A DNA stretch of 47,229 bases from Gammaproteobacteria bacterium (GTDB lineage Bacteria; Pseudomonadota; Gammaproteobacteria; Natronospirales; JAJUFS01). Positions 23,684 to 33,971 of the stretch are shown one piece after another. The notes under the pieces are model-generated. The model did not search any database. It saw nothing but the letters and a program-made list of their open reading frames with translations, and was not told the origin of the DNA. The translations under genes and the position numbers were made by a program. Within the stretch, counting starts at the first letter, position 1, and every line of letters begins with the position of its first letter. The stretch covers positions 1-47,229 of the forward strand of contig JAJUFS010000006.1 in the NCBI GenBank assembly GCA_029263725.1. Reading direction: 5' to 3'.

Positions 23684-25567
23684 TCATTTTTCGAGATAGG
23701 TGTAGCCGGTGAGGCCTTCCTGCAGCGCCTCCATGTAGCGCGTGCGCGTCTTCTTGTCGAGACCGGCCTTGAGCAGCTTCTCGCGGTAGCAGGCAAGCAG
23801 TTCCTCGGCGTAGAGATGCACGTAGGCCAGCACTTCGTCGGCGCGGTCGCCCTTCTCCGGGCGCACCATCACGAAGCTGCCGTTTTCGTCGCGCTCGACG
23901 TTCACCGAGTCGGTGTCGCCGAACAGGTTGTGCAGGTCGCCGAGAATTTCCTGGTAGGCGCCGACCAGGAAGAAGCCGAGCAGGTAATCCTGGTCCTTCT
24001 GCAGCGGATGCACGGCGAGCGTGGCCTCCAGGCCGTCGCGATCGACGTACTGCTCGATGCGGCCGTCGGAGTCGCAGGTCATGTCCTGGATCACCGCGCG
24101 GCGCGTCGGCACTTCGTTGAGGCGGTGCACGGGCATGATCGGGAAGATCTGGTCGATCGCCCACACGTCCGGCAGCGACTGGAACACCGACATGTTGCAG
24201 AAGTACTTGTCGGCAAGCTTCTCGTTGAGCTCGTCCACCATCTCGCGCTGGCCGCGCGCGGCCGGCTTCAGCGCGGCGCGCACGCGCCGGCAGATGGCGT
24301 AGTAGAGCTGCTCGGCGCGGGCGCGCTGTTCCAGCGAGATCACGCCGTGGATGTACATGGCCTGCGCTTCCTGCAGCCAGTAGATCGCATCCTGGTAGAT
24401 TTCCAGCTGGGCGCGGCCGTCGGTGTTCTCGTAGCCCTCCCACAGGTCATGCAGGATCATCGGGTCTTCCGGCGACGGCGCCTCCGGTTCCATTTCCATG
24501 ACGCTTTCCGCGTCCACCACGTTGGTGACCAGCACGGCGTGGTGCGCGGTCATGGCGCGGCCCGACTCGGTGATGATGTCCGGGTGCGGCAGCGAGTATT
24601 CCTCGCAGACTTCCCAGAGCGTGCGCACGATGGTGTTCGCATACTGCGACATCGAGTAGTTGGTGGAGTAGTCGCGCCGCGAGCGCGTGCCCTCGTAGTC
24701 GATGCCGAGCCCGCCGCCGACGTCCATGGTGGTGATCGGCACGCCGAGCGCGTGCATTTCCGCGTAGGCGCGCGCCGACTCGCGCATGCCGCGAGCGATG
24801 TCGCGGATGTTGGCGAGCTGCGAGCCGAGATGGAAATGCAGCAGCTGCAGGCAGTCCTTCATGCCGGCTTCCTCGAGGCGGCTGACAGCCTCGAGCAGCT
24901 GCGAGGCGAGCAGGCCGAACTTGGACTTCTCGCCGCCGGTGTCCGCCCAGCGGCCACCGCCGGCGTTGGCGATGCGTACGCGCACGCCCAGCGTCGGCCG
25001 CACGTTCATGCGGTGGGTAAGCTCGATGATGTGATCGATCTCGTTGAGCTTCTCGACCACGATGTAGACCTTGTGGCCGAGCTGCTGCCCGATCAGGGCA
25101 AGCTCCAGGTACTCGCGGTCCTTGTAGCCGTTGCAGACGATGGTGGAGCGCTCCGGCGCCAGCGCCAGCACTGCCATCAGCTCCGGCTTGGAGCCCGCTT
25201 CCATGCCGACCTTGTCGGCGCCGAACTGCAGGATGTCCTCCAGCACCGAGCGCTGCTGGTTCACCTTGATCGGGTAGACCGCGGTGTAGCGCGCCTGGTA
25301 GCCGTAACTCTCCATCGCGCCCGCGAAGGCGTTCGTCAGGCTCTCGATGCGGTGCCGGATGATGTCGCCGAAGCGGAACAGCACCGGCAGCGACAGCCCG
25401 GCCTCGTCCACGCGGCTGGCAAGATCGTAGAGGTCGACCGCGCCATCCTCGCGATTGCCGGTCGGGTAGACCAGCGTGTGGCCTTCCGGGCTTATGTCGA
25501 AATAGCCTTCGCCCCAGCGGGCGACGTTGTAGATGTCACGGCATTCCTTGATGGAATCGTCAGTCAT
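23684..25567 (-). CDS. speA: Biosynthetic arginine decarboxylase
   Basis: A 627-residue PLP enzyme that converts arginine to agmatine, the first step of the agmatine route to putrescine. The PLP Lys is 101 in YPIKVNQQ; FHLGSQ, DVGGGLGIDYEG and ESGRAMTAHHAVL are the expected fold type III motifs, and the C-terminal QDMTCDSDGRI holds the catalytic Cys. Length is close to the E. coli enzyme. The ATG has no clear ribosome site; a GTG four codons upstream is an alternative. No agmatinase or putrescine step is in the window. It is divergent from speE, with a shared promoter region. Confidence 0.95.
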   Translation of the reverse strand: MTDDSIKECRDIYNVARWGEGYFDISPEGHTLVYPTGNREDGAVDLYDLASRVDEAGLSLPVLFRFGDIIRHRIESLTNAFAGAMESYGYQARYTAVYPIKVNQQRSVLEDILQFGADKVGMEAGSKPELMAVLALAPERSTIVCNGYKDREYLELALIGQQLGHKVYIVVEKLNEIDHIIELTHRMNVRPTLGVRVRIANAGGGRWADTGGEKSKFGLLASQLLEAVSRLEEAGMKDCLQLLHFHLGSQLANIRDIARGMRESARAYAEMHALGVPITTMDVGGGLGIDYEGTRSRRDYSTNYSMSQYANTIVRTLWEVCEEYSLPHPDIITESGRAMTAHHAVLVTNVVDAESVMEMEPEAPSPEDPMILHDLWEGYENTDGRAQLEIYQDAIYWLQEAQAMYIHGVISLEQRARAEQLYYAICRRVRAALKPAARGQREMVDELNEKLADKYFCNMSVFQSLPDVWAIDQIFPIMPVHRLNEVPTRRAVIQDMTCDSDGRIEQYVDRDGLEATLAVHPLQKDQDYLLGFFLVGAYQEILGDLHNLFGDTDSVNVERDENGSFVMVRPEKGDRADEVLAYVHLYAEELLACYREKLLKAGLDKKTRTRYMEALQEGLTGYTYLEK

Positions 25568-25618
25568 GTCGGGGAGCACCGGAAGGTTGAAGTGGAGGGG
25601 GGCCGGGAAAGTGACGCG

Positions 25619-25624
25619 ATTATA
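25619..25624 (-). promoter_or_regulatory. -10 element of speA
   Basis: The minus strand reads TATAAT, 51 bases before the speA ATG. The -35 position at 17 bases is TTCGCC, a weak match. The 123-base divergent region therefore holds back-to-back promoters for the two polyamine genes. Confidence 0.55.
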
Positions 25625-25656
25625 GGGGATGCGGACGGCGCGGCGAATACAGGAGG

Positions 25657-25662
25657 TATACT
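25657..25662 (+). promoter_or_regulatory. -10 element of speE
   Basis: TATACT lies 28 bases before the speE ATG, matching five of six positions. No clear -35 is seen. A GGAG site precedes the ATG by about seven bases. Confidence 0.5.
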
Positions 25663-25690
25663 TTGCCGCCCCCTTTGACCGGAGAATGCC

Positions 25691-26560
25691 ATGACCGAGA
25701 CGCGCTTTGCCGATGCCCAGTGGTTCACCGAGGTTGCCACCGAGTGCGGTTCCGCCTTCTCGCTGGAGATCCGTGCCAAGGTGCATGAGCAGCAGACGCC
25801 CTTCCAGAAGATCGAAGTCTGGGAGACGAAGCGCTGGGGCTACCTCATGGTGATCGACGGCTTCGTCATGCTGTCCTCGCGCGACAACTTCCTCTACCAC
25901 GAGATGATGGCGCACGTGCCGCTGTTCACCCACCTCGATCCACGCCATGTGCTGATCATCGGCGGCGGCGACTGCGGCACGCTGCGCGAAGTGCTGCGCC
26001 ACCCGCAGGTCGAGACCGCCTGGCAGGTGGACATCGACGAGGGCGTGACGCGCGCCTCCGAGAAGTTCTTCCCCGAGCTGTGCGAATCCAACAACGACCC
26101 GCGCGCGCGCCTGCACTTCGAGGACGGCATCAAGTGGGTGAAGGAAGGCGAGGCGGAAAGCGTGGACGTCATCATCGTCGACTCCACCGATCCCATCGGC
26201 CCGGCCGAAGGCCTGTTCACCGAGGCCTTCTACCGCGACTGTCTGAAGATGCTGCGCCCGGGCGGCCTGCTGGTTCAGCAGAGCGAATCACCGCTGCTGC
26301 ACATGCAGATTCTCAAGGAAATGCACCATGCCATGCGCGGCGCCGGTTACGCCGACGTGCGCACCTACCAGTTCCCGCAGCCGGTCTATCCCTCCGGCTG
26401 GTGGTCGGCGACCATGGCGCGCAAGGGCCGTGTCATCGACAGCTTCCGCGAAGCCGAAGCGCTGGCCGCGCCGGAGAAGTTCGGCACGAAGTACTACACC
26501 GCCGACATCCACCGTGCCGCCTTCGCCATGCCGGCGTTCTTCAGGCGCGAGATTGGCTGA
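25691..26560 (+). CDS. speE: Spermidine synthase
   Basis: A 289-residue aminopropyltransferase that makes spermidine from putrescine and decarboxylated SAM. The cofactor motif GGGDCGTLRE is at 91-100, and the catalytic loop DSTDPIGPA begins at Asp164 with the second Asp at 167, as in E. coli SpeE. QQTPFQKIEVWET and YHEMMAHVPL line the active site. It is divergent from speA, which feeds the same pathway. A second, signal-peptide-bearing paralogue is at 5881-6783. Confidence 0.97.
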   Translation: MTETRFADAQWFTEVATECGSAFSLEIRAKVHEQQTPFQKIEVWETKRWGYLMVIDGFVMLSSRDNFLYHEMMAHVPLFTHLDPRHVLIIGGGDCGTLREVLRHPQVETAWQVDIDEGVTRASEKFFPELCESNNDPRARLHFEDGIKWVKEGEAESVDVIIVDSTDPIGPAEGLFTEAFYRDCLKMLRPGGLLVQQSESPLLHMQILKEMHHAMRGAGYADVRTYQFPQPVYPSGWWSATMARKGRVIDSFREAEALAAPEKFGTKYYTADIHRAAFAMPAFFRREIG

Positions 26561-28398: not shown

Positions 28399-30336
28399 TC
28401 AACGCCCCTGCCGTTCCGCCACCTCGCGAATCGTTCTCGCCAGGAACTCGCCGTAGCGCTCGATGTAGTTCACGTCGCCGGTGTTGTCGAGCAGCCACGG
28501 ATTCATCAGCGTGTGGCGCAGGATGAAGATGCCGTCGGCATCGACCTCGCTGATGCCCAGCGTTTCCAGCACCCGCAGGAATTCCTCCTCGCCCATGCCG
28601 CGACGTGACAGCGTGGTGTAGGAGCCGAAGAACTCCCTGGTCTGTACCGGCACCGCCGGATCGACGCGCATGGCGCGGAACACTTCGCGCGCGAAGCGGT
28701 TGGCCGCGCGCAGCGAGCGGTTGCCGGCGGGATTGATGGCAACGCAGACCAGGTTGCTGTCCGGCTCCACCGGTACCGACAGTCTTGCGCAACCTTCGAG
28801 CTCGCGGGCGATGACCGGCATGTGATCGAAGAAGTGCTCGGCGGCGCGAATGGTTTCGCGAATGATGCGCCCGAGTCCTTCACGGTGCGGCGGCACCACG
28901 CGTTGCGCGACGTACACGCCCGCGGCCGCCGCGCCCGACTTCGAGCCTTCGAGGATGTAGCGGCCGAGCTGGCGGAACTTGGCGCGGTAATCCGGCGCAT
29001 CGCGTTCCGGGTCGAACACGTAGTCGGCGTCCTGCGCGACCAGGTCCAGCATGCGCTGGTCTCGGAACACGATGGCGCCGGCGCCGAAGGGCACGAAGCC
29101 GAGCTTGTGCGGATCGACGGTGATGGAATCCGCGTGCCGCACGGCCTCCAGGGAGGCATGCACGCGTTTGCTTGGAAAATGCCGGAATTCGCGGCGCACG
29201 CTGTCATGGTCCGCGAAGCTGCCGTCGCTTTCGCGGAACAGCGCGGCGAGATAACCGCCCCAGGCGGCATCGATGTGCACCGGCGCATGCAGGCCGCGCT
29301 GCTGCCAGCGCTCGCGGCAGGCGATGATCTCGTGGATGGGATCGATAGTGCCGAACTCGGTGGTGCCGAGCACCGCGACAATGGCAAGCACCGGCTGCCG
29401 TTCCGCGGCGAGTTCCGACAGCAACGCATCCAGCGCCGCGCTGTCCATGCGCATGCCGCGTTCCGGCACCTTGCGGAACTGCGCGGTGCCAAGCCCGGTG
29501 AGTTTCATCGCCTTCTGCCAGGAATAGTGCGCGGTGGCGGGCAGCAGCACCACAGGCTCGCGCCACTCGGGATGGCGGCGCGCGAACTCCACCAGGCCGA
29601 GATGCTCGACGCGCTCCGACTCGACCGCATCCAGCCAGGCGCGTCCCTCGCGTTCCGGCATTTTCGATGCGGCCTCCAGCACGGCGGCATGCAGTGCGAT
29701 GGTCTCGGCGTTGGAGAAATTGAGCAGCGTCCACGCATCGAGCGCGCGAACGTCGCCCTGGCGGCTGCGGATCCCGACGTCGCGGTTCCGCGCCGCGGCG
29801 GCCACCGCCAGCGGGTAATGGCGCAGCGCGCGCTGCACGTTCAGCGCTTCGTAGTTGGCGACCGTGCCGCCGGAGGTGAGATGGCCGAAGGCGCAGTCCG
29901 GCCGGGATTCGTCGGTCGCATAGCCCAGCATCCTGGCAAGCTGCAGGCCGACGGAAATCTCCATGTCCAGCGTCACCGGCGCCGCCTCGTCGACGACATT
30001 GTTGGGGTTGTAGGGCAGCGTCATGATCTGCGCGACTAGTGCCGGCAGCAGCAGGTCGGAAGTCATGTGGCCGATGTAGCGCGGGCTGGAGAACGGCACC
30101 GAACGCTTCAGCGCCGCGCTCAGCGCATGCAGCTCGCGGCTCATGTGCGCGACGAAGTCGCGGTAGCCGGGCGAGTTCATCGCCAGCAGCGGGATGGCCG
30201 GCGGGTCCTCGGGATGGAAGTTGCGCCGCCAGTAAACGTGGTCCCGGAGGAATTCCAGCAGGAGTTTCTCGAACAGGTCGTTGTTCTCGCCGTAGGGACC
30301 GAGAAACAGCGGGTGGAGATGGCTTCTGTCGTTCAT
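28399..30336 (-). CDS. Group II PLP-dependent decarboxylase, tyrosine-decarboxylase-like
   Basis: A 645-residue PLP enzyme of the glutamate/tyrosine/aromatic amino acid decarboxylase class. GHLTSGGTVANYEAL (151-165), HIDAAWGG (355-362) and the PLP Lys411 in DPHKLGFVPFGAG are clear. Its length of about 650 residues is close to tyrosine decarboxylases such as those of enterococci, but the substrate cannot be read. The ATG at 30336 lies at the edge of a strong hairpin. An in-frame ATG at 30399 would add 21 residues and has a weaker ribosome site. An FNR/DNR-type box at 30389-30402 lies upstream, so anaerobic or NO control is inferred. It is divergent from the second PLP enzyme. Confidence 0.8.
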   Translation of the reverse strand: MNDRSHLHPLFLGPYGENNDLFEKLLLEFLRDHVYWRRNFHPEDPPAIPLLAMNSPGYRDFVAHMSRELHALSAALKRSVPFSSPRYIGHMTSDLLLPALVAQIMTLPYNPNNVVDEAAPVTLDMEISVGLQLARMLGYATDESRPDCAFGHLTSGGTVANYEALNVQRALRHYPLAVAAAARNRDVGIRSRQGDVRALDAWTLLNFSNAETIALHAAVLEAASKMPEREGRAWLDAVESERVEHLGLVEFARRHPEWREPVVLLPATAHYSWQKAMKLTGLGTAQFRKVPERGMRMDSAALDALLSELAAERQPVLAIVAVLGTTEFGTIDPIHEIIACRERWQQRGLHAPVHIDAAWGGYLAALFRESDGSFADHDSVRREFRHFPSKRVHASLEAVRHADSITVDPHKLGFVPFGAGAIVFRDQRMLDLVAQDADYVFDPERDAPDYRAKFRQLGRYILEGSKSGAAAAGVYVAQRVVPPHREGLGRIIRETIRAAEHFFDHMPVIARELEGCARLSVPVEPDSNLVCVAINPAGNRSLRAANRFAREVFRAMRVDPAVPVQTREFFGSYTTLSRRGMGEEEFLRVLETLGISEVDADGIFILRHTLMNPWLLDNTGDVNYIERYGEFLARTIREVAERQGR

Positions 30337-30360
30337 GCGCGCCTCGCTTCGAGGCGCGCA
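30336..30360. promoter_or_regulatory. Strong hairpin overlapping the decarboxylase start
   Basis: TGCGCGCCTCG (30336-30346) and CGAGGCGCGCA (30350-30360) form a perfect 11-base stem with a three-base loop. Read on the minus strand, it contains the only GAGG ribosome site and ends with the A of the ATG, so the initiation region may be hidden when the full leader is transcribed. Confidence 0.55.
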
Positions 30361-30388
30361 ATTGTGTGCAGCCGGGAACGCACTCGCA

Positions 30389-30402
30389 TTGACCTGCATC
30401 AA
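30389..30402. promoter_or_regulatory. FNR/DNR-type box between divergent PLP-enzyme genes
   Basis: TTGACCTGCATCAA differs at one position from the FNR-family consensus TTGAT-N4-ATCAA. For the leftward gene a class II arrangement (centre at -41.5) would put the start at 30354 and the -10 at CACAAT (30361-30366, four of six). For the rightward gene the same spacing puts the start at the ATG itself. A second box of the same type is at 31614-31627. Confidence 0.65.
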
Positions 30403-30436
30403 TGCCGTTCCCTGGCGTTACCGGCACGATCGATGC

Positions 30437-31528
30437 ATGCAAGAAGCCTGGCGGGAAAATGCCATCGATCGCCTGCTGGCGGAACGCGCGGCGGCGCCGT
30501 TCACGCCGGTGCGGGCGCTGTCGCTGCGCTGCGGGCGGCAGCTCCTGTTCAAGGACGAATCCGTTCACCCCAGCGGCAGCCTCAAGCATCGCCTCGCGCG
30601 CGCCCTGTACCTGCACCACCTTCGTGAAGGCCGTCTTGCGCCGGGCATGGCGGTATTCGACGCCTCTTCCGGCAGCACCGCGGTTTCCGAAGCCTGGTTC
30701 GCCGAGCGGCTCGGGTTGCGTCACTTCGCGGTCATTCCCGAGCACACTTCGCCCGCCAAGCAGGCACTGATCCGTTCCTTCGGCGGCGAATGCATCACCG
30801 TGAACCCGCAACGCTGCTGCAAGCAGGAGGCGGCGCGGCTGGCGCAGGAGCACGGCGGCGTGTTCCTGGACCAGTTCGGCAATGCCGCCCGCGTGGTGGA
30901 GTGGCATGCACACAATGTCGCCGTCGAATTGTTCACGCAGCTCGCCGAGCGCGGCATGCCGCTGCCGGACGCGTTCATCTGCGGCGCCGGCACCGGCGGG
31001 ACGGCGGCCAGCACTGGAAGGTTCCTGCGCCGTACCGGCAGGGCGACGCGCCTGCTGGTCGTCGATCCGGAGGAGTCCGCGTTCTACGCGCATTTCACGG
31101 GCAGGGAAGCCGGTTGCCTCTGTGCGTCACGCGTCGAGGGCATAGGCCGGCCTGCGGTCGAGCCCGCCTTCGATCCCGCGCTGATCGATGCCATGCTGCG
31201 CGTCCCGGACGCGGCCTCGTTCGCCGCGGCGCGCTGGCTCAAGTCCCGGCTTGGCTGGTCGGTGGGCGTGTCCACCGGCACCAACTTCATCGGTGCGATC
31301 CATGCATTGGCTGCCGGCGGGCAGTGCGTGGCTACCTTGATATGCGATGGCGGCGAACGCTACGCCGGCACGCTGGACAACGAGGACTGGCTGGCCGCGC
31401 AGGGCTTCCATGTCGCTGCCTGGAAAGAGGCCATCGACCGGTGGTATGCCGGCGGCGACTGGCTGCCGCCCCAGGCGATCTCGGCAAGCGAGCCTTGCCG
31501 CAGGTCGACCGGCCGCGCCGCGGAGTAG
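30437..31528 (+). CDS. Cysteine-synthase-like PLP-dependent enzyme
   Basis: A 363-residue fold type II PLP enzyme. Lys50 in SGSLKHRLA is the Schiff-base residue, as in cysteine synthases (SGSVKDR). DASSGSTAVSEAWFAE is the substrate loop, and GAGTGGTAAS is the phosphate loop. It is related to O-acetylserine sulfhydrylase and cystathionine synthase, but extra length and departures such as Leu-Lys-His set it apart and the substrate is unknown. Several Cys pairs (QRCCKQE, GCLCAS) are notable. The ATG at 30437 follows an FNR/DNR-type box with no ribosome site, possibly leaderless. Quinol NO reductase follows 160 bases downstream on the same strand. Confidence 0.75.
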   Translation: MQEAWRENAIDRLLAERAAAPFTPVRALSLRCGRQLLFKDESVHPSGSLKHRLARALYLHHLREGRLAPGMAVFDASSGSTAVSEAWFAERLGLRHFAVIPEHTSPAKQALIRSFGGECITVNPQRCCKQEAARLAQEHGGVFLDQFGNAARVVEWHAHNVAVELFTQLAERGMPLPDAFICGAGTGGTAASTGRFLRRTGRATRLLVVDPEESAFYAHFTGREAGCLCASRVEGIGRPAVEPAFDPALIDAMLRVPDAASFAAARWLKSRLGWSVGVSTGTNFIGAIHALAAGGQCVATLICDGGERYAGTLDNEDWLAAQGFHVAAWKEAIDRWYAGGDWLPPQAISASEPCRRSTGRAAE

Positions 31529-31613
31529 CCCTGGACCGGCGGCAACTCCTTTTCTTCCTTCCTTCATTACGCACCTCCTTCGAACCTGCCGCCTTGATGG
31601 CCACCAGGCGCCC

Positions 31614-31627
31614 TTGACCGCCATCAA
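31614..31627. promoter_or_regulatory. FNR/DNR-type box upstream of the NO reductase gene
   Basis: TTGACCGCCATCAA matches the FNR-family consensus at all but one position and shares TTGAC-N4-ATCAA with the box at 30389-30402. Class II spacing predicts a start at 31662, with GAAGAT (31650-31655) as a weak -10 and a 27-base leader to the ATG at 31689. DNR, NNR and ANR regulators use such sites to induce NO reductases. Confidence 0.7.
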
Positions 31628-31688
31628 GGCAAGGCATGGCAAGGCCGCGGAAGATGCGCCTGCCGCACGTGCGGAGGAGGAGCAGGTC

Positions 31689-33971
31689 ATGAACGAGACG
31701 AAACGGCTGTGGTGGACGCTGGCAGCCATTCTTGCAGTGTCCTTCGGCGTCATGCTGTGGCTGGGTGGCGAGATCTACCGCACCATGCCGCCGGTGCCGG
31801 CTGCGTATGTGAGCGCGGATGGCGAGGTGATCTACAGCCGCGCCGATGTCGAAACCGGGCGCATGGTCTGGCAGAGCACCGGCGGGCACCAGCAGGGCTC
31901 GATCTGGGGGCACGGCGCGTATCTTGCGCCGGACTGGACCGCAGACTGGCTGCATCGCGAAGCGATGGCGCTGCTCGACATCTGGAGCCGGCGCGAGTTC
32001 GGCAAGGCGTACGCGCAACTCGAGGCAGACCACCAGGCCATGCTGCAAAGCCGCCTGCAGCGCGAGATGCGCGCCAACACCTATGCCGCCGACGTCGACC
32101 GCGTGGAGATTTCCGCGGATCGCGCCGCCGCCATCCGCGAAGTCGCGCAGCATTACGCGAAGCTGTTCAGCGACGATCCCGAACTCGAGGCGTTGCGCGA
32201 GGATTACGCCATCCGCAACAACCCCATCGAGGATCCGGCGCGGCGCGAGGCGCTCGGGGCGTTCATCTTCTGGAGCGCCTGGGCCGCGACCACGAACCGT
32301 CCCGGGGACGACATCACCTTCACCGCCAACTGGCCGTCCGAACCGCTGGTCGGCAACAGGCCCACCAGTGCGGCATTCATGTGGACGTTCATTTCCATCC
32401 TGCTGCTGCTCGCGGGCATCGGCGCGCTGGTATGGCATCACGCGCGCATGTCCGGGCGCGAGCAGCCGCCGGCGCCGCCGTCCATCGATCCGTTGCACAA
32501 CCTGAAGCCGACGCCGTCGATGAAGGCGACCATCAAGTACTTCTTCGTGGTCGCGGCGCTGTTCGGATTGCAGGTGCTGCTTGGAGCGATCACCGCGCAT
32601 TACGCCGTCGAAGGGCATCACTTCTACGGACTGAATCTCGCCGACATCCTTCCCTACGCGGTGACGCGCACCTGGCACACGCAGCTCGCCGTGTTCTGGA
32701 TCGCGACCGCGTGGCTCGCGACCGGGCTCTACATCGCGCCGGCGATCTCCGGGCATGAACCGAGATTCCAGCGCGCCGGCGTCAACTTCCTGTTCGTCTG
32801 CCTGCTGGTCATCGTCGCCGGTTCCATGGCCGGGCAATGGCTGGGCGTGATGCAGAAGATGGGGCTGGACATCAATTTCTGGTTCGGACACCAGGGTTAC
32901 GAGTACGTCGATCTCGGCCGCTTCTGGCAGATCTTCCTGTTCGTCGGCCTGCTGCTATGGCTGCTGCTGATGGGCCGCGCCCTGTGGCCGGCGCTGCGGA
33001 AGAAGGATGAAGGCCGGCCGCTGGTGATCATCCTGTTCCTGTCGGTGATCGCGATCGGACTGTTCTACGGCGCCGGGCTGATGTGGGGCAAGCACACGCA
33101 TCTCGCCCTGGTCGAGTACTGGCGCTGGTGGGTGGTGCACCTGTGGGTGGAAGGCTTCTTCGAGGTGTTCGCGACGGCCGTCATTGCCTTCCTGTTCACC
33201 CGGCTGGGTCTCGTGCGCACGAAGAACGCGGTCACCGCGATCCTGTTCGCGACCATCGTGTTCCTCACCGGCGGCGTGCTCGGCACCTTCCATCATCTCT
33301 ACTTCACCGGCACGCCGACCTCGGTCATCGCCATCGGCGCGAGCTTCTCGGCGCTGGAGGTGGTGCCGCTGGTCTTGCTCGGCTTCGAGGCCTGGGAGAA
33401 CTACAGGCTGTCGCGCGCGGCGCCCTGGGTGGCGACCTACAAGTGGCCGATCATGTTCTTCATCAGCGTCGCCTTCTGGAACCTGGTCGGCGCGGGCCTG
33501 TTCGGCTTCCTGATCAACCCGCCGCTGTCGCTCTATTACATCCAGGGCCTGAACACCACGGCGCTGCACGGACACACCGCGCTGTTCGGCGTCTACGGGA
33601 TGCTCGGCATCGGCCTGATGCTGTTCTGCCTGCGCGGCCTCACGTATCGCCGCGAGTGGAGCGAAGCGCCGCTCAGGCTCGCGTTCTGGACGCTGAACAT
33701 CGGCCTCGCCGCCATGGCGCTGTTCAGCCTGCTGCCCATGGGCCTGCTGCAGATGCATGCCAGCGTCACCGAAGGCTTCTGGTATGCGCGCAGCGCGGAG
33801 TTCATGCAGCAGCCGCTCATGCATCTGCTGGTGTGGATGCGCGTGCCGGGCGACGTGATCTTCAGCGTCGGCGTGCTCAGCGTGGCCTGGTTCGTGCTGC
33901 GGCTGTTCATCGGCCCGTCGCGCGAGCGAAGCGGCGCCGCGCTCAGCCCGCTCGCCGAAAGCGCGGACTGA
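31689..33971 (+). CDS. norZ: Quinol-dependent nitric oxide reductase (qNor)
   Basis: A 760-residue single-subunit NO reductase that reduces 2 NO to N2O with quinol. An N-terminal extension (about 10-220) with one membrane helix and a periplasmic domain replaces the cytochrome c subunit; GGHQQGSIWGHGAYLAPDW is typical of qNor. The NorB core has His330 and His629 for the low-spin heme, His627 for heme b3, and His484, His535, His536 plus Glu488 for the non-heme iron; Glu557 is also kept. All ligands are present, so it is likely active. The ATG at 31689 has a GGAGG-type site. An FNR/DNR-type box is upstream and a strong terminator follows. Confidence 0.95.
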   Translation: MNETKRLWWTLAAILAVSFGVMLWLGGEIYRTMPPVPAAYVSADGEVIYSRADVETGRMVWQSTGGHQQGSIWGHGAYLAPDWTADWLHREAMALLDIWSRREFGKAYAQLEADHQAMLQSRLQREMRANTYAADVDRVEISADRAAAIREVAQHYAKLFSDDPELEALREDYAIRNNPIEDPARREALGAFIFWSAWAATTNRPGDDITFTANWPSEPLVGNRPTSAAFMWTFISILLLLAGIGALVWHHARMSGREQPPAPPSIDPLHNLKPTPSMKATIKYFFVVAALFGLQVLLGAITAHYAVEGHHFYGLNLADILPYAVTRTWHTQLAVFWIATAWLATGLYIAPAISGHEPRFQRAGVNFLFVCLLVIVAGSMAGQWLGVMQKMGLDINFWFGHQGYEYVDLGRFWQIFLFVGLLLWLLLMGRALWPALRKKDEGRPLVIILFLSVIAIGLFYGAGLMWGKHTHLALVEYWRWWVVHLWVEGFFEVFATAVIAFLFTRLGLVRTKNAVTAILFATIVFLTGGVLGTFHHLYFTGTPTSVIAIGASFSALEVVPLVLLGFEAWENYRLSRAAPWVATYKWPIMFFISVAFWNLVGAGLFGFLINPPLSLYYIQGLNTTALHGHTALFGVYGMLGIGLMLFCLRGLTYRREWSEAPLRLAFWTLNIGLAAMALFSLLPMGLLQMHASVTEGFWYARSAEFMQQPLMHLLVWMRVPGDVIFSVGVLSVAWFVLRLFIGPSRERSGAALSPLAESAD

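Follow-up and report, generated by a model that had tools for sequence, protein, structure and literature searches.

Here we describe two FNR/DNR-type boxes in a 47,229-nt stretch of gammaproteobacterial DNA (the window, on contig C127 of a draft, 83%-complete assembly of 2.15 Mb). Together with the enzyme assignments given below, they probably represent class II activator sites, for FNR and/or DNR, of three genes: qNor, encoding a nitric oxide reductase; DEC, encoding a tyrosine-decarboxylase-family protein; and CDS1, encoding a Cds1-like enzyme of the PALP fold. From their promoters and from gene clusters in relatives, DEC and CDS1 look like new members of the low-oxygen/NO response. The regulon type is known; the literature searched contained no account of the decarboxylase and the Cds1-like enzyme as recurrent members. 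The regulatory reading is strong. Sites, promoter geometry, conservation, recognition helices and catalytic residues can be read from the sequence, and from there we infer binding and induction, the substrates and the physiological role of the two enzymes.

The two boxes and their regulon

Box 1, TTGACCTGCATCAA (positions 30389-30402), lies between the divergent starts of DEC (30336, minus strand) and CDS1 (30437, plus strand), and box 2, TTGACCGCCATCAA (31614-31627), about 62 bp ahead of the qNor ATG at 31689; neither is assigned to a strand. Both match the TTGAYN4RTCAA pattern of FNR/DNR class II promoters, and box 1 has a counterpart in a sister genome. The half-sites are common to the two boxes, and each box is itself a near-palindrome, TTGAC against TTGAT. 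An earlier examination of this DNA (the sequence-only reading) had reported both 14-mers at exactly these positions, with half-sites identical between the boxes and placed upstream of the divergent PLP pair and of qNor; start coordinates and sequence bear this out, each box being only nearly palindromic. The distance from box centre to start codon is 59.5 bp for DEC, 41.5 bp for CDS1 and 68.5 bp for qNor.

Exact matches to TTGACN4ATCAA number two in the window, versus a mean of 0.05 in dinucleotide shuffles, none of 100 of which reached two. The 2.15-Mb assembly holds seven, and the reversed control pattern none. The relaxed pattern TTGAYN4RTCAA occurs at eight places (control pattern, one), two of which, at the contig ends C76:121-134 and C195:4348-4361, share the same box and flanking DNA and are therefore one locus, split by an assembly break or repeated, so that the count of distinct sites is seven.

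Across the whole assembly these seven sites lie at ccoN, hemN, nnrS, nirK, a DUF2249 operon, qNor and DEC/CDS1. Contig C191 carries two of them, at ccoN of the cbb3 oxidase and at hemN; on C164, nnrS is boxed and so is a nirK-like gene with a fused cytochrome c domain; and C195 carries a boxed DUF2249 gene and a second NnrS-like gene. All sites other than that of the PLP pair belong to textbook low-O2/NO targets. DUF2249 is the same family as COG4309. Rodionov et al. connected it with NO reductase (PMC1274295).

Cognate CRP/FNR regulators are encoded in the same genome. On C195, an FNR-type regulator combines a CxxCxxxxxC cluster and a later Cys with the recognition helix ETVSR; a DNR-type regulator lacks the cluster and has ETFSR as its helix. 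Both carry the E-T-x-S-R form of the expected E-x-x-S-R helix. The FNR-type and DNR-type genes lie beside hemN and the DUF2249 operon. The FNR/DNR-type regulation proposed in the sequence-only reading thus finds its regulators in the genome, with a small set of sites almost all at textbook targets. That reading had also envisaged a small regulon joining two uncharacterised PLP enzymes to qNor. The shared site stands; a private three-gene circuit is excluded by the seven sites, which define a general low-O2/denitrification regulon (ccoN, hemN, nirK, nnrS, qNor).

Some neighbours of these sites are of separate interest. The protein encoded at L096:1637-3178 (C164), which resembles copper nitrite reductases and ends in a cytochrome c domain, has TTGATGATTATCAA ahead of its gene, with TAGCCT in register; SUMF1-like, SCO-like and azurin-like genes come next. 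Behind an FNR-type box in the DUF2249 operon on C195 lies a gene for a 422-aa multi-spanning membrane protein (L094:2791-4059), for which no match was found in Pfam or NCBIfam. Additionally, pdxH, encoding the O2-dependent pyridoxamine-phosphate oxidase, adjoins the DNR gene (L094:2127-2732) and, in the sister genome, the FNR gene (L099:2556-3161); a link to PLP supply for PLP enzymes is possible.

Promoter geometry and conservation

When a class II box is centred at -41.5, the -10 hexamer starts 22 bp past the box. At exactly this register, the A-11 and T-7 of a -10 hexamer are present wherever one of the seven sites faces a gene, in eight directions altogether (CACAAT, CACGAT, GAAGAT, TATCGT, GAGAAT, CACCAT, GAGAAT and TAGCCT) and in none of the six opposite directions. 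Shifted by 1 to 9 bp either way, the pair appears in 0/8 gene-facing directions, and at shifts of 10 to 14 bp in at most 2/8. The chance expectation is 0.029 per direction (A and T at 17% each), a nominal probability that is descriptive since the test was framed after the first hexamers had been seen; fair controls are provided by the opposite directions and by the remaining offsets.

For DEC, the hexamer CACAAT (30361-30366, minus strand) stands in exact class II register, with a predicted transcription start at 30354 and a leader of 18 nt; for qNor, GAAGAT (31650-31655, plus strand) does likewise, with a predicted start at 31662 and a leader of 27 nt. CDS1 has CACGAT (30425-30430, plus strand), whose A-11 and T-7 fall exactly in register, and its predicted transcription start, 30437, is the A of the ATG, which would give a leaderless mRNA (leader, 0 nt). 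With an in-register -10 on both sides, box 1 is predicted to drive both DEC and CDS1. No sigma-70-like promoter of normal -35/-10 spacing was found in the region around the boxes. By this geometry the boxes appear to be functional class II promoters. Both would be bound by FNR, an oxygen-sensing iron-sulphur regulator, and/or by DNR, which senses nitric oxide; when O2 is low and NO present, the bound dimer, its centre at -41.5, would recruit RNA polymerase at qNor and, from the single two-way site of box 1, at DEC and CDS1.

The sequence-only reading had, beforehand, made its case depend on conservation of the boxes in relatives, and upstream of DEC orthologues the box proved to be conserved. 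Within 190 bp upstream, a strict box was found for 9 of 35 orthologues and one with at most one mismatch for 18 of 35 (0.02 and 0.34, respectively, in shuffles), and a control stretch downstream gave 0/34; these counts, like the neighbourhood and co-occurrence statistics below, ignore shared ancestry. Among the 18 boxed orthologues, 13 have A-11/T-7 in exact register, versus 0 to 2 at other offsets. Many of the DEC genes without a box of their own lie inside longer operons.

The one genome of the same family, the sister genome, has TTGACCTGCGTCAA upstream of DEC (L074), and the hexamer in its -10 register, TCTAAT, keeps T-7 and not A-11. Its DEC cluster includes a DNR-type regulator, nnrS, qNor, chorismate mutase, ubiT/ubiV/ubiU, DUF2249 and fabA-fabB, with four more strict boxes. 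At a locus from the same order (L076), a box is followed by hemN and then DEC, and an fnr-like gene adjoins. DEC is also present in 29 of 150 genomes of another gammaproteobacterial order. DEC would thus be a tyrosine-decarboxylase-family enzyme with stable membership of the regulon in several gammaproteobacterial families.

The products of the three genes

The 760-aa product of qNor (31689-33971, plus strand) is, by its sequence, an ordinary NorZ, a quinol-dependent nitric oxide reductase (PF22085 and PF00115; PDB 8bgw/6qq5, E about 1e-272). A NorC-like domain is fused to the NorB core in a single chain without a c-type haem motif, and the translation of the N-terminal domain contains no cysteine. 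Like the NorZ structures 8bgw and 6qq5, it combines the NorB cytochrome c-like and COX1 domains in one chain, and it aligns with solved qNors across nearly its full length with no notable difference.

DEC (28399-30336, minus strand; 645 aa) is a group II PLP decarboxylase of the tyrosine-decarboxylase family (PF00282, PF21391, TIGR03811). Its score against TIGR03811, 340.8 bits with a cut-off of 905.3, marks it as a relative within the family that lies outside the equivalog. The best structure matches are the tyrosine decarboxylases (TyrDC) of Lactobacillus brevis (PDB 5hsi, E 7e-92) and Enterococcus faecalis (7cwx, E 3e-88). Catalysis in the L. brevis enzyme (TDC) requires K392, H241 and Y420 (PMC4904194), and the corresponding group II features, the PLP Lys, the stacking active-site His and the Tyr of the catalytic loop, are invariant in 36/36 DEC orthologues. 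DEC further resembles these enzymes in length and in the His and Ser of the 98-103 loop. It differs in its pocket: K240 is replaced by Ala and the DAAYGG tyrosine by Trp in all 36 orthologues, the S586-aligned position is Thr in 35 of 36, and Y398 is Phe in 13 and otherwise Tyr. It differs, too, in having no antiporter neighbour seen and in its setting, a denitrification regulon. DEC, whose catalytic core is intact, is likely to be an active decarboxylase of an aromatic or similar amino acid.

Another PLP decarboxylase lies about 2 kb from DEC: speA (arginine decarboxylase), divergent from speE (spermidine synthase), at window positions 23684-26560. No FNR-type box was found at this pair.

CDS1 (30437-31528, plus strand; 363 aa) is a PALP-fold protein (PF00291) whose best NCBIfam model by far is NF052478, the L-cysteine desulfhydrase Cds1, at 334.6 bits with an equivalog cut-off of 600. 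As with DEC, a score below the curated cut-off makes the substrate name provisional; with families assigned, the two PLP enzymes are not entirely uncharacterised, as the sequence-only reading had described them. By sequence, solved structures cover the folds of all three products, those of tyrosine decarboxylases, cysteine synthases and qNors. CDS1, with the motif GSLKHR, shares with Mycobacterium tuberculosis Cds1 the PLP lysine, in GSLKH, and the substrate loop SSGSTA, which stands in place of the TSGNTG of cysteine synthases; the positions checked in these motifs are common to 26/26 Cds1-like proteins, one of them mycobacterial. The M. tuberculosis enzyme converts cysteine to H2S and pyruvate and stimulates respiration (PMC8389258), and CDS1 would most likely split cysteine to H2S, pyruvate and ammonia. 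CDS1 is unlike the mycobacterial enzyme in its score (335 bits versus 600), its FNR/DNR-type promoter and its very long branch in the tree; none of the relatives found is more than about 50% identical to it.

The same-family genome gave no match to a Cds1-like protein at E 1e-40. The pairing of CDS1 with DEC in the window may be recent, or the function of CDS1 may have altered, and what links the two here is the site they share, the -10 hexamer and the analogous operons elsewhere. Of the Cds1 proteins linked to DEC, 13 of 14 fall on one side of a branch (support 94/90), a grouping that is suggestive only. This branch is not decisive and the window CDS1 is a long one, and the tree does not establish an ancient, constant pairing of CDS1 with DEC. 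At one locus (L078, genome G030) the proximity of the two genes is probably incidental, because the closest kin of that CDS1 (L086, L092) have no DEC nearby. A scan of named genome contigs for CDS1 yielded only one Mycobacterium and one Sphaerimonospora locus, and plasmid searches yielded distant relatives only.

Gene neighbourhoods and the possible use of the enzymes

NO, denitrification or anaerobic-biosynthesis genes lie near DEC at 24 of 36 loci; at ten loci partner genes were absent from the stretch read, some of these stretches being ended by contig ends. Among ten comparison loci with a Cds1-like gene and without DEC, none has a comparable cluster, one having fabA/fabB and a multicopper-oxidase-type match. 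The DEC neighbours form two groups. The first serves NO handling, with qNor and NnrS at 10 loci each, and NirK. The second serves oxygen-independent biosynthesis: UbiD (11 loci), UbiU/UbiV (9), UbiT, FabB (7), HemN (6), FabA (4), prephenate dehydrogenase (4) and chorismate mutase (2). A recurrent order, hemN-fnr-qNor-nnrS-sirB-DEC-CDS1-ubiD with ubiU-ubiV nearby, is seen at L133, L135 and L136, with variants at L145-L150 and L156; the frames of sirB, DEC, CDS1 and ubiD overlap by 4 bp at L133. At the genome level, DEC and qNor occur together in 20 genomes versus 6.4 expected (odds ratio 18), and DEC and UbiV in 18 versus 7.7 (odds ratio 7), kinship being ignored in both; of the 29 genomes with DEC, four had neither qNor nor UbiV above the cut-offs applied.

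The DEC clusters also contain less familiar genes. A 176-aa His-rich, probably exported protein family (L147:3554-4084) is encoded at 12/36 loci and a 98-aa family with the motif CIGCGxIEAPQxCIGVC (L147:4116-4412) at 8/36; neither has a match in Pfam or NCBIfam. A SirB2-family membrane protein (PF04247) is encoded at 11/36 loci and, at L133:8140-8541, directly upstream of DEC with overlapping frames. Genes for chorismate mutase or a prephenate-dehydrogenase-like protein occur at L074:8108-8452, L080:12546-12908 and L148:4212-5018, in some cases near UbiU/UbiV or UbiD.

We tentatively propose that the regulon keeps metabolism and the respiratory chain going without O2 and with NO, DEC and CDS1 having supply roles: DEC would provide an aromatic amine or take away an aromatic amino acid, and CDS1 would provide sulphide. 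This proposal is at its weakest in the role of DEC. The sequence-only reading had suggested acid-consuming decarboxylation or sulfur/thiol chemistry with NO, roles that are conjectural; in relatives, the genes around DEC point to oxygen-independent biosynthesis no less than to NO detoxification. It is possible, if short of probable, that DEC serves such biosynthesis (anaerobic ubiquinone, aromatic metabolism) and is unrelated to NO chemistry, the switch being shared as both are needed without O2. The biosynthetic neighbours and the aromatic-type family of DEC argue for this alternative; the neighbours are the more notable since the hydroxyl groups added in anaerobic ubiquinone synthesis are reported to come from prephenate (PMC11574389) and E. 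coli ubiUV is activated by FNR (PMC10470549). Against it stand the equal frequency of qNor and NnrS as neighbours and the tighter tie of DEC to qNor than to UbiV. Moreover, ubiquinone synthesis has no step known to require a PLP decarboxylase. That DEC performs an unrecognised step of oxygen-independent aromatic/quinone metabolism, such as handling the amino-acid product after prephenate donates its hydroxyl, is distinctly unlikely; the notion derives from the translationally coupled DEC-CDS1-UbiD operons of relatives, by UbiU/UbiV, and from the DEC loci near chorismate mutase or prephenate dehydrogenase. If true, DEC would add a new part to the equipment with which denitrifying gammaproteobacteria respire anaerobically.

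A different question is whether box 1 truly targets both of its flanking genes. It is unlikely that DEC is its sole target and CDS1 a chance neighbour with a promoter of its own that escaped recognition. The conserved box is that of DEC, the sister genome is without CDS1, and the ATG of CDS1, merely 41.5 bp from the box centre, implies a leaderless mRNA, all of which favour a DEC-only target; the CACGAT hexamer at exact register, of a kind that no non-gene-facing direction has, and the lack of another sigma-70-like promoter in the region weigh against it, as do L133, L147 and L148, where CDS1 lies directly 3' of DEC, ends overlapping or nearly touching, so that the two would be co-expressed from one operon. 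We thus favour the reading in which box 1 activates both genes.

Membership of DEC in the family of the lactobacillal and enterococcal TyrDC might also suggest amino-acid-dependent pH homeostasis, in which decarboxylation consumes protons as in lactic acid bacteria. This is very unlikely: neither the window nor the loci that were read gene by gene showed an amino acid/amine antiporter next to DEC, and nitrite and NO reduction already consume protons. Finally, that the boxes are chance matches or, given the likeness of TTGAC to a -35 hexamer, ordinary -35 elements is scarcely credible, being strongly disfavoured by the shuffles, the reversed-pattern controls, the conservation and the -10 register, all far from chance, and by the lack of a normally spaced -35/-10 pair.

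The regulon that includes the two boxes resembles the FNR/ANR and DNR regulons described in gammaproteobacteria (PMC1274295, PMC6588701) in its TTGAYN4RTCAA sites, in regulators beside hemN and in its targets ccoN, hemN, nirK, nnrS, DUF2249 (COG4309) and nor genes, and differs from them in that a PLP decarboxylase and a Cds1-like enzyme recur among its members. The word "decarboxylase" is absent from the main text of both papers, and our literature search found no paper placing this decarboxylase in an FNR/ANR/DNR regulon. The rule of a box, 22 bp and a -10 hexamer with A-11/T-7 provides a sharp finder of more regulon members in GC-rich genomes. If our reading is right, many denitrifying gammaproteobacteria have in their low-oxygen/NO programme a conserved tyrosine-decarboxylase-family part that has been overlooked, its recurrent partner being a Cds1-like enzyme, and this would offer a testable lead on what cells living on nitrogen oxides need beyond reductases and haem enzymes.
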